Assembly: GCA_025350985.1 (NCBI GenBank)
Contig: JANXWU010000194.1
Location: forward strand, 1-10,105
Length of the DNA stretch: 10,105 bases
Direction: 5' to 3'
DNA from: Spartobacteria bacterium
GTDB taxonomy: Bacteria; Verrucomicrobiota; Verrucomicrobiia; Chthoniobacterales; Chthoniobacteraceae
In this document: in pieces, positions 5,655 to 10,105 of the stretch
Layout of the letters: each line of letters begins with the position of its first letter
How positions within the stretch are numbered: the stretch's first letter is position 1
Made by a program: the position numbers and the translations under genes
Notes under the pieces: generated by a model
The model's input: only the letters and a program-made list of their open reading frames with translations
Told to the model about the DNA's origin: nothing
Databases searched by the model: none

Positions 5655-7259
5655 CTAGAACTCCGCCGGGCCACTCGTGCCGCCGCCCGCGTCGCTCCAT
5701 TGCTCCGGTTGCCCCTTGATGAAATCGACGACCTGCTTTTGCGCGCGCAGTTTTTTTTGCAATTCCGGCACGTCAATTTCCTGCACGGGCTTCCCTGATT
5801 TCACCGCCATCGCCGCCGCGATGCCCGCAGCGTGACCGCCGATCATCCAGACGCTTTCGAGCCGGTAGGTGCAAAACGCGACGTGCGAAAAACTCGCCGC
5901 GCCGGGCACGAGCAAGTTCGTGCATTCCGCCGGCTTCGGCGTGAGCGCGCGATAGGGGATTTGGTAGGCGCGGCTCGTGCGCCAGATGCGGCCTTCGTTC
6001 ACAAATTCCGTCTGCGAAAGGGCGACGCGTTGGACGTGGTGGCAGTCGATGAAATGGCTGGAGATGCCGATGGAATCTGGCTTCCGGCGCTCTTCCTGCA
6101 CATCTTTTTGCGTCATTACAAACGCGCCGCGCATCCGCCGCGCCTCGCGGACGTAGAGCTGGTACGGGAAGTTTCCGTTGTCGGCGAACTCGTCCTTGTG
6201 CAGGCCCCATTCGCTCATTTCGGCGCGCAGTTTTTCCGGCACGCTCGCATCGACGAGCAGAAAATGCAGCAGCCCGAGCGTGTAGTTTTTGTGGTCGGCA
6301 AAAATCGTGTCGCGCGTCGCGTAGTCGCCGTCCGGCCAGTCGAACTGCCCGCCGAAATGCCCCAGTGAAATCACCGCCGCCTGTTTGTTGTTCACCTCGA
6401 ACTTGCCGTGGCGGCGCGGGTAAAAATCCAGCACGTCGGTCAGTTTCACGTTCTCGCCGCGCGCGCCTTTTTCGCGCAGCCAGTTCTCCAAAATCCGGTA
6501 GCGCCGGCGGTCGTAATGCGTTGGCGGCGGAATCGCAACCTTGTGCTCCGCGTCCTTCGCGAACGTGAGGCGGAAGTTGTAATTCATCACGCCCGGATGC
6601 GCGTCGCCCTCCTTCAAATCTTTCGCCCACGCGCTGATGCCCGGCAGCAATTCGCCACGATCATCGACCGTCGCGGCCTTGCGCGGCGTCTTGTCAAAAC
6701 GGACGCCCGCCGCCTCCTCGCCGAACTCCGCGCGGCTCTCGCGCCCGACGGCGTATTTCACGCCCGCGCGCGCCATCAAGTCGCCTTCGTAACTCGCGTC
6801 CACGAACAAATGCGCGGCCACCGTCGAGCCGTCGGTGAGCGTGACCGCGCGGATTTTTTTCGCGTCATCCTTTTCCACCTTCACCACGGCGCTGCCGAAT
6901 CGCACCTCGACTTTTGCCTCGCGCAGCAAGTCGTTGAAAACCTTTTCCGCCACACTCGACTCGAAGAAATATTCCGCCTTGTTCGTGCCGTATTCTTTGC
7001 CGAGACGTTCGTAAAATTCGAGCGCGAACCCGCCAATCGTCCACTTGAGCATGTGCTCGCTTTCCGCCGTGTTGATCCCACTCGTGCTCAAGCCGCCGAG
7101 GTGTTTTGTCGGCTCGAGCAGCGTGACTTTTGCGCCCTCGCGCGCCGCGGCGACGGCAGCCGCGATGCCGCACGGAGTGCCGCCGTAAACGACGACATCC
7201 ACCGGTTCGACGGCGGCAGCGGGCAGGGCGAAAAGCAGGCACGCGAGAAAGATTTTCAT
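5655..7259 (-). CDS. Exported FAD-dependent oxidoreductase (FAD_oxidored type)
   Basis: Secreted or periplasmic flavoprotein of 534 residues. The Sec signal is MKIFLACLLFALPAAA (1-16). The dinucleotide fold follows directly: VDVVVYGGTPCGIAAA (20-35) with GGTPCG in the GxGxxG position, acidic E49 and HLGGLSTSG (53-61). DASYEGDLMARAG (154-166), YVREARRMRG (369-378) and the C-terminal WMIGGHAAGIAAAMA (471-485) are the other conserved blocks of the large FAD-dependent oxidoreductase family (PF12831-like) abundant in Verrucomicrobia, Planctomycetes and Bacteroidetes. These are often found with glycosidases and are sometimes annotated as xanthan-lyase-related. The length is normal and the gene looks intact. 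The start codon overlaps the stop of the upstream cytochrome gene (ATGA at 7256-7259), so translation is likely coupled. The substrate is unknown; a sugar- or alcohol-derived substrate passing electrons to the neighbouring haem protein is inference. Confidence 0.92.
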   Translation of the reverse strand: MKIFLACLLFALPAAAVEPVDVVVYGGTPCGIAAAVAAAREGAKVTLLEPTKHLGGLSTSGINTAESEHMLKWTIGGFALEFYERLGKEYGTNKAEYFFESSVAEKVFNDLLREAKVEVRFGSAVVKVEKDDAKKIRAVTLTDGSTVAAHLFVDASYEGDLMARAGVKYAVGRESRAEFGEEAAGVRFDKTPRKAATVDDRGELLPGISAWAKDLKEGDAHPGVMNYNFRLTFAKDAEHKVAIPPPTHYDRRRYRILENWLREKGARGENVKLTDVLDFYPRRHGKFEVNNKQAAVISLGHFGGQFDWPDGDYATRDTIFADHKNYTLGLLHFLLVDASVPEKLRAEMSEWGLHKDEFADNGNFPYQLYVREARRMRGAFVMTQKDVQEERRKPDSIGISSHFIDCHHVQRVALSQTEFVNEGRIWRTSRAYQIPYRALTPKPAECTNLLVPGAASFSHVAFCTYRLESVWMIGGHAAGIAAAMAVKSGKPVQEIDVPELQKKLRAQKQVVDFIKGQPEQWSDAGGGTSGPAEF

Positions 7260-10105
7260 TTTGGCGTGGGGCTCAGCAGATAGGAAAGCAGGTCGTTGAA
7301 CTCATCGGCTTTGAGTGCCTCGCCGAAGCCCGGTGGCATCAAGGAAAGATTCGACTGCGCCCGCGACTTTACGCGCGTTTTGGCGACCGTCGTTTCCTGT
7401 CCCGCGACGTCGCGCACGAAGAGATTTCCACCTTCCTCGCGCTGCACCATGCCGGTCATCTGCTCGCCATTTTCGAGCGTGAGCGTGGTCAGGCGAAAAG
7501 CCGGATCGACGTTGCGATTCGGGTCGATGATGTCCTCGCACAGCCGTTGCACGCCGCGCGCCGAGACGCCGTCGAGATTCGGTCCGACATTGCCGCCGTC
7601 GTTGCGGAAGCGGTGGCAGATCGCGCACGTTTGCTGAAAAATTTGCGCGCCGTGTTTCGGGTCGGGCTTCGCGTCGGCGAACGCCTTCACGCGCTGTGCG
7701 ATCAGCGCGTCGAGACGCGCGTCTTCGGACGGCAAACCTTGGACGAGCTTCGCGGCGCGGGCGCGCAGTTCGGGCGCGCGCGTTTCCATCACGGCGGCGA
7801 AAAACTTGCCGCGCAAAACGGTGGCGGAGACTTTACCGGCCTCGACCAAATCAAGCAGCCGCGTCGCGCTGTCATCGGTTTTTGCCAGGACGACCGCCAG
7901 AATATTTCCCAGTTCGGACGGAGCGGCGGGCAGCGCGGCGAGACTGGCGGTGGCGGCTTTTTCGCCGACTCGCTGTCCGAGCAATTCGGCGGCGCGTTTG
8001 CGCACGGCGAGGTCGCCGGGGTCGTTCAAGGCCGCCACGAGTGCGTCGAGGCCGGGCTCCAGATTGGCCAGCGCGTTGAGCGCGGCGACGCGGAGTGCGG
8101 TCGGCCGTTTCGGATCGGTGGCGACGGCGGCGAGCGGCGAAAGTTTCGCGTCGAGCTTCGTCTCGCGCAGGGCTTCGAGCGCGCGCTTGAGCGTGGCTTC
8201 GTCGGGACTCGCGAGCGCGTCGAGCAGCGTGCGGTCGATCCACGTGGCGGTCGCTTGGGGAAAATGGAGGCTGCGTTTGCGGGCGGCGTCGTTGAGCGCG
8301 TCGGCCATCGCCAGCCGCTGCGCGAGCGGCGCAGCGCGGAATTTTTCCACGAACGCAAACAGCGCGGGCAGTTTCTCCGGCGCGATGTGCAGCGCGGCGT
8401 GTTTGAAAAACTCGCCCGCGCGCGGCGTGGCGAAGTGGGTGCGTTCGAGGTGCGCGAGGAGGAAGTCGGCGGAGTTGGGTGTGGGAATCGCGAGCGAAAC
8501 TTCTGCCACGAATGACATCAGCGCGGAAAACGAGCGAATAATTTCCAGATTTGGATTGGTGCCCTGCGGGTAGTCAGGAACCTCAATTTTGGTAATATGC
8601 GAGTAGCCTTCCGAGCTGAGCAGATAATCCCGGAGCAACATTTTAGCTGCATACTCCGCAACTGGGTCCCGCCCTCGGTAAAGAGCGGCGAAGTCGCTAA
8701 TGATATGCAAATAGGCTTCGCCCAGTATTGCTTTAGGAGAGCTTGCGAAAACAAAAAAACGGCTAAGCAAGCCGCGCGCATCAGCGTAGTGATTTGTCTC
8801 TTCAACGGCGAAAAAGCTGACAGATGCAGTTTTGCCTGCGCGATCTCGATCGATATCAGCCAATGTTCTTCCGAGGAGGAGCCAATCAGGTCGCATAGAA
8901 AGATCGTTTACGCTGCGTGAGTAGTAGCGAACAAGAATGCTCGCCGCATGAAGCTCTTGTGGTGTGGCGATGCCGAGTCTCTCTGCCACCCAAAACAGAT
9001 AAGCAAGCCCTACAGGCTTGTCAGTGTAGGTGGGCTCGATCTCGTCATCTTTACTTATCCCATTCTGCCACGCCTTCAGATTTGTAGGGACTAAGTGCTT
9101 TTGAAGCTGGCTACGAAAGGTTGATGAGTCTCTACAAACCAACTCATTCGTCGCCAGCCGGCGCACTTCGAGGTTCGGGTCGCCGAGTTTTTCGACGAGC
9201 GCTTTCGCGTCAAGCTTCGTGAGGTCGGGGAGCGCACGCGCCTCGCGTGCTGGTCGCGGCGCCTCGCCGCGACGAACTTCCTCGACGGACGAATTTCGCT
9301 GCGCGACGTTTTTTCCTTCGACCGCGTCGGCGGAAGTTCGCGAAGGCGGGGCGCCTTCGCCAGCACGCGAGGCGCGTGCGCTCCCCGAAGCTGCCGCTTC
9401 CGCCTTCGCGGCATTTTGTTTCTCCGCTTCTGCCACCGCGGTGCGCGCGTCTTTTTCCCCGACATACACGACGCGCCAGATGCGCCCGTGCGTGTGGTCG
9501 CGGTGCGGGTCGGTCAGCGGCACTTCGTAGTGGCCGATGATCGCGTTGTAAAAATCCGCGATGTAAAGCGCGCCGTCGGGGCCGAGCTTGAGGTTCACCG
9601 GGCGGAACCACGGGTCGTCGCAGGTGACGAAATCCGGCTGCCGGAGCGCGCGCGGCGTCGAGCCGTGCCATTCGAGTTTGTCGCGATTCACGCGGCGCGT
9701 GACGGGGTTGCCGTTGAAAAGATTGCCGCGAAATTCCTCGGGCCATTTGTCGTCGGCGTAGTACGCGATGCCGCCGATGGCGCTCGATCCGTGGTCGTCG
9801 TCGGTGATGCGCGGCGCGAAGCCGAGTCCGTCGTGCTGTTTGCCGATGCCCTCGTAGTAGCCGCCGCGCAGGAGGAGATAGACGGGCTTCGAGTGCGAGT
9901 CGGCGCTGTAGAGATTGCCGAGCGGGTCGAACGCGAGGCCGAACGGATTGGTCTGGCCGTGCGTGAAAATTTCAAACCTCGATCCGTCGGGGCGAAAACG
10001 AAATGTATTGCCGCTGTCGAGAACGGTGAGGTTGCCCGCGCGGTCGCGGACTTCGGAGTGATTGCGAAAACCGTGCGTGCCGTAAATCCAGCCGTCGATC
10101 CAATA
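7256..10105 (-). CDS. PVC-type membrane-bound dehydrogenase / HEAT / cytochrome c protein (5'-partial)
   Basis: The frame is open to the right edge, so the true start lies outside; 949 residues are visible (numbered from the edge). Residues 1-215 are the C-terminal part of a six-bladed sugar-dehydrogenase-like propeller (GGYYEGIGKQHDGLGFAP near 84-101, LGPDGALYIADFYNAIIGHYE near 174-194, HGRIWRV near 206-212). This matches the Pirellula/Verrucomicrobium N-terminal domain family (TIGR02604-like). Residues 240-293 come from an in-frame palindromic repeat. Alpha-helical HEAT-like repeats cover about 297-800. The C-terminus is a mono-haem c-type domain (TIGR02603-like) with CAICH at 827-831; Met923 in NLSLMPPGFG is a plausible axial ligand. 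It is probably periplasmic or membrane-attached and oxidises sugars or alcohols, by family inference. Residues about 320-535 have lower GC and atypical codon use. The downstream flavoprotein overlaps it by 4 bp. Confidence 0.93.
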   Translation of the reverse strand, partial: YWIDGWIYGTHGFRNHSEVRDRAGNLTVLDSGNTFRFRPDGSRFEIFTHGQTNPFGLAFDPLGNLYSADSHSKPVYLLLRGGYYEGIGKQHDGLGFAPRITDDDHGSSAIGGIAYYADDKWPEEFRGNLFNGNPVTRRVNRDKLEWHGSTPRALRQPDFVTCDDPWFRPVNLKLGPDGALYIADFYNAIIGHYEVPLTDPHRDHTHGRIWRVVYVGEKDARTAVAEAEKQNAAKAEAAASGSARASRAGEGAPPSRTSADAVEGKNVAQRNSSVEEVRRGEAPRPAREARALPDLTKLDAKALVEKLGDPNLEVRRLATNELVCRDSSTFRSQLQKHLVPTNLKAWQNGISKDDEIEPTYTDKPVGLAYLFWVAERLGIATPQELHAASILVRYYSRSVNDLSMRPDWLLLGRTLADIDRDRAGKTASVSFFAVEETNHYADARGLLSRFFVFASSPKAILGEAYLHIISDFAALYRGRDPVAEYAAKMLLRDYLLSSEGYSHITKIEVPDYPQGTNPNLEIIRSFSALMSFVAEVSLAIPTPNSADFLLAHLERTHFATPRAGEFFKHAALHIAPEKLPALFAFVEKFRAAPLAQRLAMADALNDAARKRSLHFPQATATWIDRTLLDALASPDEATLKRALEALRETKLDAKLSPLAAVATDPKRPTALRVAALNALANLEPGLDALVAALNDPGDLAVRKRAAELLGQRVGEKAATASLAALPAAPSELGNILAVVLAKTDDSATRLLDLVEAGKVSATVLRGKFFAAVMETRAPELRARAAKLVQGLPSEDARLDALIAQRVKAFADAKPDPKHGAQIFQQTCAICHRFRNDGGNVGPNLDGVSARGVQRLCEDIIDPNRNVDPAFRLTTLTLENGEQMTGMVQREEGGNLFVRDVAGQETTVAKTRVKSRAQSNLSLMPPGFGEALKADEFNDLLSYLLSPTPK
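8490..9150 (-). other. Low-GC, codon-atypical in-frame island within the cytochrome gene
   Basis: Counted in 60-base lines, GC here is mostly 40-57% (about 50% overall), against well over 60% on either side. Codons rare in the neighbouring genes appear together: ATA, AGA, TGT, TCA, CCT, GTT and CGA. The reading frame stays open and the encoded segment still looks helical and HEAT-like (AYLFWVAERLG, then a long non-repetitive part), joining more ordinary HEAT sequence at both ends. No inverted ends, transposase or direct repeats were seen at the borders, which are only approximate. Recombination with a homologue from a lower-GC relative is the simplest explanation; relaxed or ancient sequence is the alternative. 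Confidence 0.6.
9227..9386. repeat. Nested palindromic element inserted in frame in the cytochrome gene
   Basis: Positions 9227-9253 and 9360-9386 are perfect inverted copies of 27 bp. Each arm contains a hairpin, GCACGCG/CGCGTGC with a 3-base loop (9234-9250 and 9363-9379). Next inward are two more hairpins, TCGCGGCG-CCT-CGCCGCGA (9254-9272) and CGAAGGCG-GGG-CGCCTTCG (9341-9359), then a perfect 9-bp pair (9273-9281 with 9332-9340). The middle two hairpins differ in sequence but each pairs fully, so the changes are compensated. The cytochrome frame reads through, adding about 53 Ala/Arg/Glu/Pro-rich residues between propeller and HEAT region. Because it is palindromic, both strands encode near-identical peptide ends (SARASRAG and REARALP). 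No clean target-site duplication was found. It resembles a non-autonomous (MITE- or REP-like) element. Confidence 0.88.

Follow-up and report, generated by a model that had tools for sequence, protein, structure and literature searches.

The 160-bp palindromic element found inside a coding region of the window, as the whole 10,105-nt stretch of DNA analysed here is called, can with good confidence be read as an in-frame REPIN that is probably moved by a RAYT transposase nested within PriA of the same genome, relatives of which are nested in host proteins in a like manner. Sequence comparison points to this reading through a repeat family, in-frame residence, absence of the insert from homologues, identity between the REP and those flanking the RAYT, nesting of the RAYT itself and catalytic motifs that are mostly retained. 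The term REPIN is used here as it reportedly is in a paper that bears the word in its title.

A nested inverted repeat of about 160 bp, with perfect 27-bp arms and four hairpins and lying in a coding region without breaking it, had been reported in a preliminary description of the window, and both statements held: the arms and the predicted folds agree, and the minus-strand frame is free of stops throughout, including across the element (Table 1). Beyond the perfectly matching outer arms, longer arms of 57 nt each (9225–9281 and 9332–9388) are 84% complementary and separated by 50 nt. Each end of the element is laid out as GGGGAG, hairpin H1, TG, hairpin H2 and GAACTT, with the 50-nt spacer separating the ends, and fold prediction returned the four hairpins together with a central pairing of GAACTTCC and GGAAGTTC. 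The DNA fold reached -84.1 kcal/mol (z -10.4) and the coding-strand RNA fold -129.2 kcal/mol (z -10.6), with none of 200 shuffles equally stable in either case.

Table 1 Features of the window element and its host gene, with positions in the window.
Feature	Position	Strand	Basis
REPIN-like element, head-to-head REP dimer, 160 bp	9227..9386		inverted repeat and copies elsewhere in the genome
Left outer REP, made up of a GGGGAG tail and hairpin H1 (stem 7 bp, loop CCT)	9227..9253	+	identical 27-mer at other places, including beside the C300 RAYT; GGAG-core pattern count
Left inner hairpin H2, 9-bp stem, sequence unlike right H2	9253..9273	+	REP-half comparison
GAACTTCC, partner 9332–9339	9274..9281	+	inverted repeat and RNA fold
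Spacer, 50 nt	9282..9331		inverted repeat
GGAAGTTC, partner 9274–9281	9332..9339	+	inverted repeat and RNA fold
Right inner hairpin H2	9340..9360	-	REP-half comparison
Right outer REP, inverted	9360..9386	-	inverted repeat, perfect 27-mer
Codons of inserted peptide GSARASRAG...PAREARALP, about residues 240–293 of the 949-aa frame	9227..9388	-	nine of 11 homologues are without it
Host gene, PVC-type heme-binding CxxCH protein, open at window edge	7259..10105	-	open frame, Pfam and TIGR profiles

The host protein matched TIGR02604 (PVC-type heme-binding CxxCH protein) and TIGR02603 (heme-binding domain), both above cut-off. Pfam placed DUF7133 at residues 3–214, N-terminal to the insert, and, far C-terminal to it, HEAT_2 at 669–725 (below its cut-off) and cytochrome c from residue 815 on. 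The peptide had been described as a linker between two domains; given these boundaries, it does follow the N-terminal domain but is not adjacent to the cytochrome domain. Among 11 homologues from 10 other genomes belonging to the same family, nine lack the linker and continue directly behind the N-terminal domain, in keeping with the earlier proposal of an inserted element rather than an inherited linker. At this same site the homologue from genome G011 (L084) carries an unrelated repetitive insert of approximately 230 residues, rich in Asn, Val and Gly, while the nearest homologue (L065 from G022, 46% identical) carries a different palindromic REPIN with the same layout. At 160 bp the element does not amount to a whole number of codons, so its junctions can be placed only approximately. 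An ordinary GC-rich linker, palindromic by chance and inherited with the gene, would suit the position behind a domain and the high GC content (0.72), but is scarcely credible and was ruled out, as the same REP lies at 26 places in the genome, nine of the 11 homologues are without the linker and the fold has a z-score of about -10; the linker is thus neither shared by all orthologues nor without further genomic copies.

Those 26 places, on 25 contigs, were located by sequence search (E up to 0.0014, rows merged by hand) in a genome of 2.74 Mb in 542 contigs that is 88% complete. The GGAG-core pattern, allowing up to three mismatches, occurs 25 times in the genome versus 0 for a reversed control, and REP matches were present in 12 of the 38 genomes searched (own included). 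Inverted REP dimers occur in the genome, some copies being single ends, and the tail is mostly GGGGAG, with GTAG in contig C74 and GGGTAG in several relatives. Sorted by context, the copies bear out the suggestion of a repeated REP-type family residing both in genes and outside them. Four lie in frame within genes whose sequence is conserved to either side of the element (the window gene, an HSP70, a GT2 glycosyltransferase and a Ser/Thr kinase), three represent one insertion, in priA, and one (C454) links an HrpB fragment with a UbiD fragment. A further five lie in frame upstream of a domain (ApbE, GntP permease, DUF1501, CsbD and an esterase-like protein) and may be outside the true gene. 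None of the remaining 13 breaks into a recognised gene. Scans of one to four neighbouring frames, which covered 11 of them (those other than C273 and C260), found no domain split across the element; the frames beside the C20 copy hold no domain, and C105, where a PQQ-type protein stops short of the element, is an ambiguous case.

The intragenic copies differ in how they sit in their hosts. In the glycosyltransferase, PF00535 matches to profile position 50 before the element and PF13641 from its position 52 after it, and in the kinase gene a kinase match precedes the element and TPR and LRR matches follow. The HSP70 copy lies within the domain match and is not a pure insertion, replacing approximately 30 residues of homologue L177, so that the HSP70 protein may be impaired. 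Outside priA these copies measure 160, 127, 107 and 141 bp, which rules out a fixed insert length that is a multiple of three. A special design for freedom from stops was not supported: 64 of 90 frames in 15 full copies are open versus 57.8 expected from shuffles, and base composition (GC 0.72) mostly accounts for this.

The inner hairpins vary in sequence while keeping their pairing. Across 37 REP halves fitting a fixed grammar (three of 40 halves were excluded as non-fitting), the six loop-distal base pairs of H2 are 94.1% Watson–Crick over 23 different arms, compared with 50.9% (maximum 62.2% in 2000 rounds) when the 3' arms were re-dealt, and wherever both ends of an element could be read (13 elements), their H2 stems differ. 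The two ends of an element are therefore distinguishable, and differing stems would keep each end self-folding.

A search with the PF01797 profile identified three Y1 transposases in the genome, with the RAYT on contig C300 above cut-off. This RAYT is flanked on both sides by REPs of the window family, one of them the identical 27-mer of the window element, so the RAYT or other transposase anticipated for the family is present. The C300 frame of 463 aa comprises the PriA 3'-DNA-binding domain followed by the RAYT and runs without a stop to the contig end, while contig C510 begins in a REPIN and continues in the same frame into the PriA helicase. Both the N-terminal domain of PriA (C300) and the helicase part (C510) are present in a single copy in the genome; aligned with four references, the two parts leave 0 to 12 residues unaligned between them, and the contig ends have 27 nt in common. 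From this we infer that priA is continuous across C300 and C510, the parts meeting at a repeat. In another genome (L277), PriA-RAYT-PriA lies on a single contig, with a RAYT that is distant on the tree. The sole PDB relative was TnpArep (4er8; whole-sequence E 6.5e-6), neither stretch of the match being significant by itself. In G022, one REP within the insert of the homologue shares an identical 25-nt run with a REP that flanks the RAYT nested in RecG of that genome. As the REP matches RAYT flanks in both genomes, the two species hold different, apparently cognate families at one site, and the two stem types found there suggest that cognate elements either entered independently or were replaced.

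Nesting is widespread among relatives of this transposase. The C300 RAYT had 28 matches in 17 of 38 genomes (own included), and the eight best besides its own are nested in frame in RecG (5), AlaRS (2) and ThrRS (1). Weaker relatives are nested in ValRS (L156), CarB (L160 and L167, the latter by eye) and ClpB (L166 and L172), two weak matches (L159 and L174) lie in long frames with no clear host, L155 is a doubtful case, and 11 others, in frames of 151–418 aa, appear stand-alone. The ValRS, CarB and ClpB loci form a second, more distant RAYT group with flanking linkers of its own.

Nine nested domains were used to scan named genomes, and of 444 relatives the best 80 were evaluated. In 61 of these 80 loci, 100 or more residues of the frame lie to either side of the RAYT; the other 19 include eight stand-alone cases (four outside the Verrucomicrobiota), nine cut by a contig end, one with AlaRS downstream only (L219) and one with a stop soon after a partial RAYT (L276). 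A stand-alone gene, the criterion for a RAYT, was thus found as a short frame of its own in only eight of the 80, that label being based on short frames only. In 52 of the 80, sequence homologous to the host lies in the RAYT's frame both before and after it (AlaRS 25, RecG 21, ThrRS 5, PriA 1), and Pfam added MetH (L206, L211, L233) and GcvP (L278) as hosts. The labels MetH, GcvP and methylase were first assigned by eye, and Pfam agreed for L206, L211, L233, L278, L270, L280 and L283, gave only a weak DUF1156 match for L279, and the host labels of L209 and L210 are by eye. The MetH frame of L233 apparently holds a RAYT domain at each of two sites, the first of which is truncated where the contig ends. 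Insertion sites recur among the matches listed, AlaRS site 1 accounting for 22 of 31, the two RecG flanking motifs being present together in 18 of 23 and the ThrRS site recurring in 5 of 5. Under a strict tail-plus-hairpin rule, which misses diverged copies, 28 of these best 80 loci have REPs flanking the RAYT on both sides, and 48 have them on one side or both. Judging from such frames, the RAYT clade across the Verrucomicrobiota is mostly nested in frame in housekeeping proteins.

Nearly all of these loci come from MAGs, and the fusions might be ascribed to misassembly at repeats. In Ereboglobus sp. PH5-10, whose record is not labelled a MAG, an AlaRS fragment (L243) has a RAYT at the end of a contig. 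Contig breaks do fall at these repeats, and on C454 the HrpB and UbiD fragments meet at such an element, but the same host, site and frame recur in many separate assemblies, including a RecG-RAYT on a 2.7-Mb contig (L257), which leaves misassembly highly improbable.

Among 240 genomes sampled evenly across the phylum (own included), six had strong matches (E under 1e-60), so the clade is rare in the phylum; the frames of all six measure between 463 aa, where a contig ends, and 1164 aa, the identified hosts being PriA (own) and AlaRS (G100). The same sample gave five weak matches (E near 1e-26, four genomes) in frames of 209–438 aa. An AlaRS census found a match in 143 of 145 genomes, with most frames of 590–1000 aa; that of G100 (1099 aa) is the single one in which a RAYT was seen. 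In G030, G049, G101, G123, G134, G153 and others, the AlaRS profile match stops near 372–392, approximately the position of RAYT insertion. These genomes are outside the nine with a RAYT match in the even sample, G030 alone among them being on record as searched without one, and the breaks are possibly older inserts at the same site.

Catalytic motifs are largely kept in the 72 nested loci among the best 80 of 444 relatives, with HUH in 71 (exception L234) and Y-[IV]-x-x-N in 66; three of the six tyrosine-motif misses retain the Tyr with a different neighbour, L260 and L267 are truly without the motif and L276 is cut off. The dN/dS of the nested domain was 0.03–0.20 in 24 of 33 pairs, dS being saturated in the other nine. 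A RAYT tree of 82 sequences (79 of the best 80 of 444 loci, L276 being left out, plus three other rows) required 19 changes of host label on the best tree versus a minimum of 8 and 44 with shuffled labels, stand-alone counting as a label, and well supported forks alone force fewer changes. The AlaRS and RecG labels are clustered on this tree, suggesting that nesting is long-lived, and the overall pattern fits long residence combined with repeated moves between genes.

It is unlikely, though by no means negligibly so, that the element is instead an old REP remnant of an immobile family, with the nested RAYTs as domesticated domains serving a host function, an explanation that differs from the favoured one in mobility only. 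The clustered AlaRS and RecG labels and the purifying selection on the nested domain would agree with domestication, as would the abstract of PMC8266576, in which TnpAREP is reportedly termed a domesticated transposase. However, the excess of label changes over the minimum suggests repeated moves, albeit fewer on well supported forks alone, and REPIN and RAYT flank are identical over 25–27 nt within a genome.

An AlphaFold2 model of a RecG-RAYT protein (18 sequences, mean pLDDT 74, pTM 0.57) places the RAYT domain at approximately residues 404–545, in blocks mostly of 73–91 with dips to 55–60, and the REP-encoded stretches at 349–403 and 545–576, either side of the RAYT, are of low confidence. 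A structure search with this model ranked RecG (1gm5) highest, though at TM-scores no better than 0.45/0.54, and TnpA was not named among the best 50 of 1696 matches; assignment of the RAYT fold therefore rests on Pfam and sequence.

Inteins reside in frame in housekeeping genes and at recurrent sites, and the nested RAYTs resemble them in both respects. The inserts might accordingly be removed at the RNA or protein level, by intein-like splicing or ribosomal bypassing, yet they are stop-free and in frame, neither of which removal needs, and Pfam scans of 22 nested frames matched neither a Hint splicing domain nor a homing-endonuclease domain. An intein reading was ruled out on the absence of Hint from these frames, and removal by any such route is very improbable. 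Unlike an intein, the insert is predicted to stay.

Under the favoured explanation, a REPIN in which two inverted REPs each carry an inner hairpin specific to that end, and which depends as a non-autonomous partner on a RAYT, would have entered the PVC-type cytochrome gene behind the N-terminal domain and been kept as it was stop-free and in frame, the host thereby gaining a peptide of approximately 54 residues. The likely transposase lies in frame in priA of the same genome, between the DNA-binding part and the helicase, and would cut at the GGAG tail and move the REPIN. Fused proteins would be made in which host and transposase both work, and selection would remove out-of-frame insertions.

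The system shares with REPINs and the REP-RAYT system (IS200/IS605-related TnpAREP) an inverted REP pair, a loosely GGAG/GTAG-like tail and a hairpin, as well as a RAYT with inverted REP flanks, HUH and Tyr. It differs in having a second hairpin per end, with a variable but self-complementary stem, and in that the transposase and some REPINs lie in frame in housekeeping genes. The preliminary description had known of no established equivalent in the phylum, which was wrong: parts of PMC3733652 describe intragenic REP dimers, including those of Opitutus terrae of the same phylum, and state that dimers or groups encode 20 to 30 residues. The Opitutus terrae GTAG repeats, compared here by description, are likewise REP dimers in ORFs, whereas RAYT nesting is, next to those parts of PMC3733652, a feature of the present system. 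Rickettsia palindromic elements are also palindromic in-frame inserts in unrelated genes, but the CGTC tag given for them in the same parts of PMC3733652, where they seem to be without a dedicated transposase, was not found, the tail here being GGGGAG/GTAG. No description of nested in-frame RAYTs was found in the literature searched, which covered neither subscription papers nor preprints. RAYT surveys such as PMC6006769, part of which sets unexpectedly long TnpA proteins aside as fusions or annotation errors, may have missed the nested group.

Taken jointly, these observations make possible, though as yet tentative, a class of transposons that persist inside essential proteins as domains that are translated and not spliced out. 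The transposase would be expressed only within AlaRS, RecG, ThrRS, MetH, CarB or PriA, on disordered REP-encoded linkers, and would be active there, repeatedly re-entering the same permissive sites and spreading in-frame REPINs, with essentiality of the host guarding against deletion. Such a mobile-DNA lifestyle would stand between inteins and insertion sequences, without splicing and without a separate gene, in essential proteins, and it makes testable both the tolerance of a mid-protein transposase by a helicase or tRNA synthetase and the persistence of REPINs.

At C454 (L114:1861-3462), the HrpB helicase fragment and the UbiD-family fragment are joined in frame, reflecting either recombination of two copies or an assembly chimera. 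A GTAG-tailed copy at C74:2893-2949 (L099) terminates the frame of a 4-alpha-glucanotransferase, the stop being the TAG of the tail.
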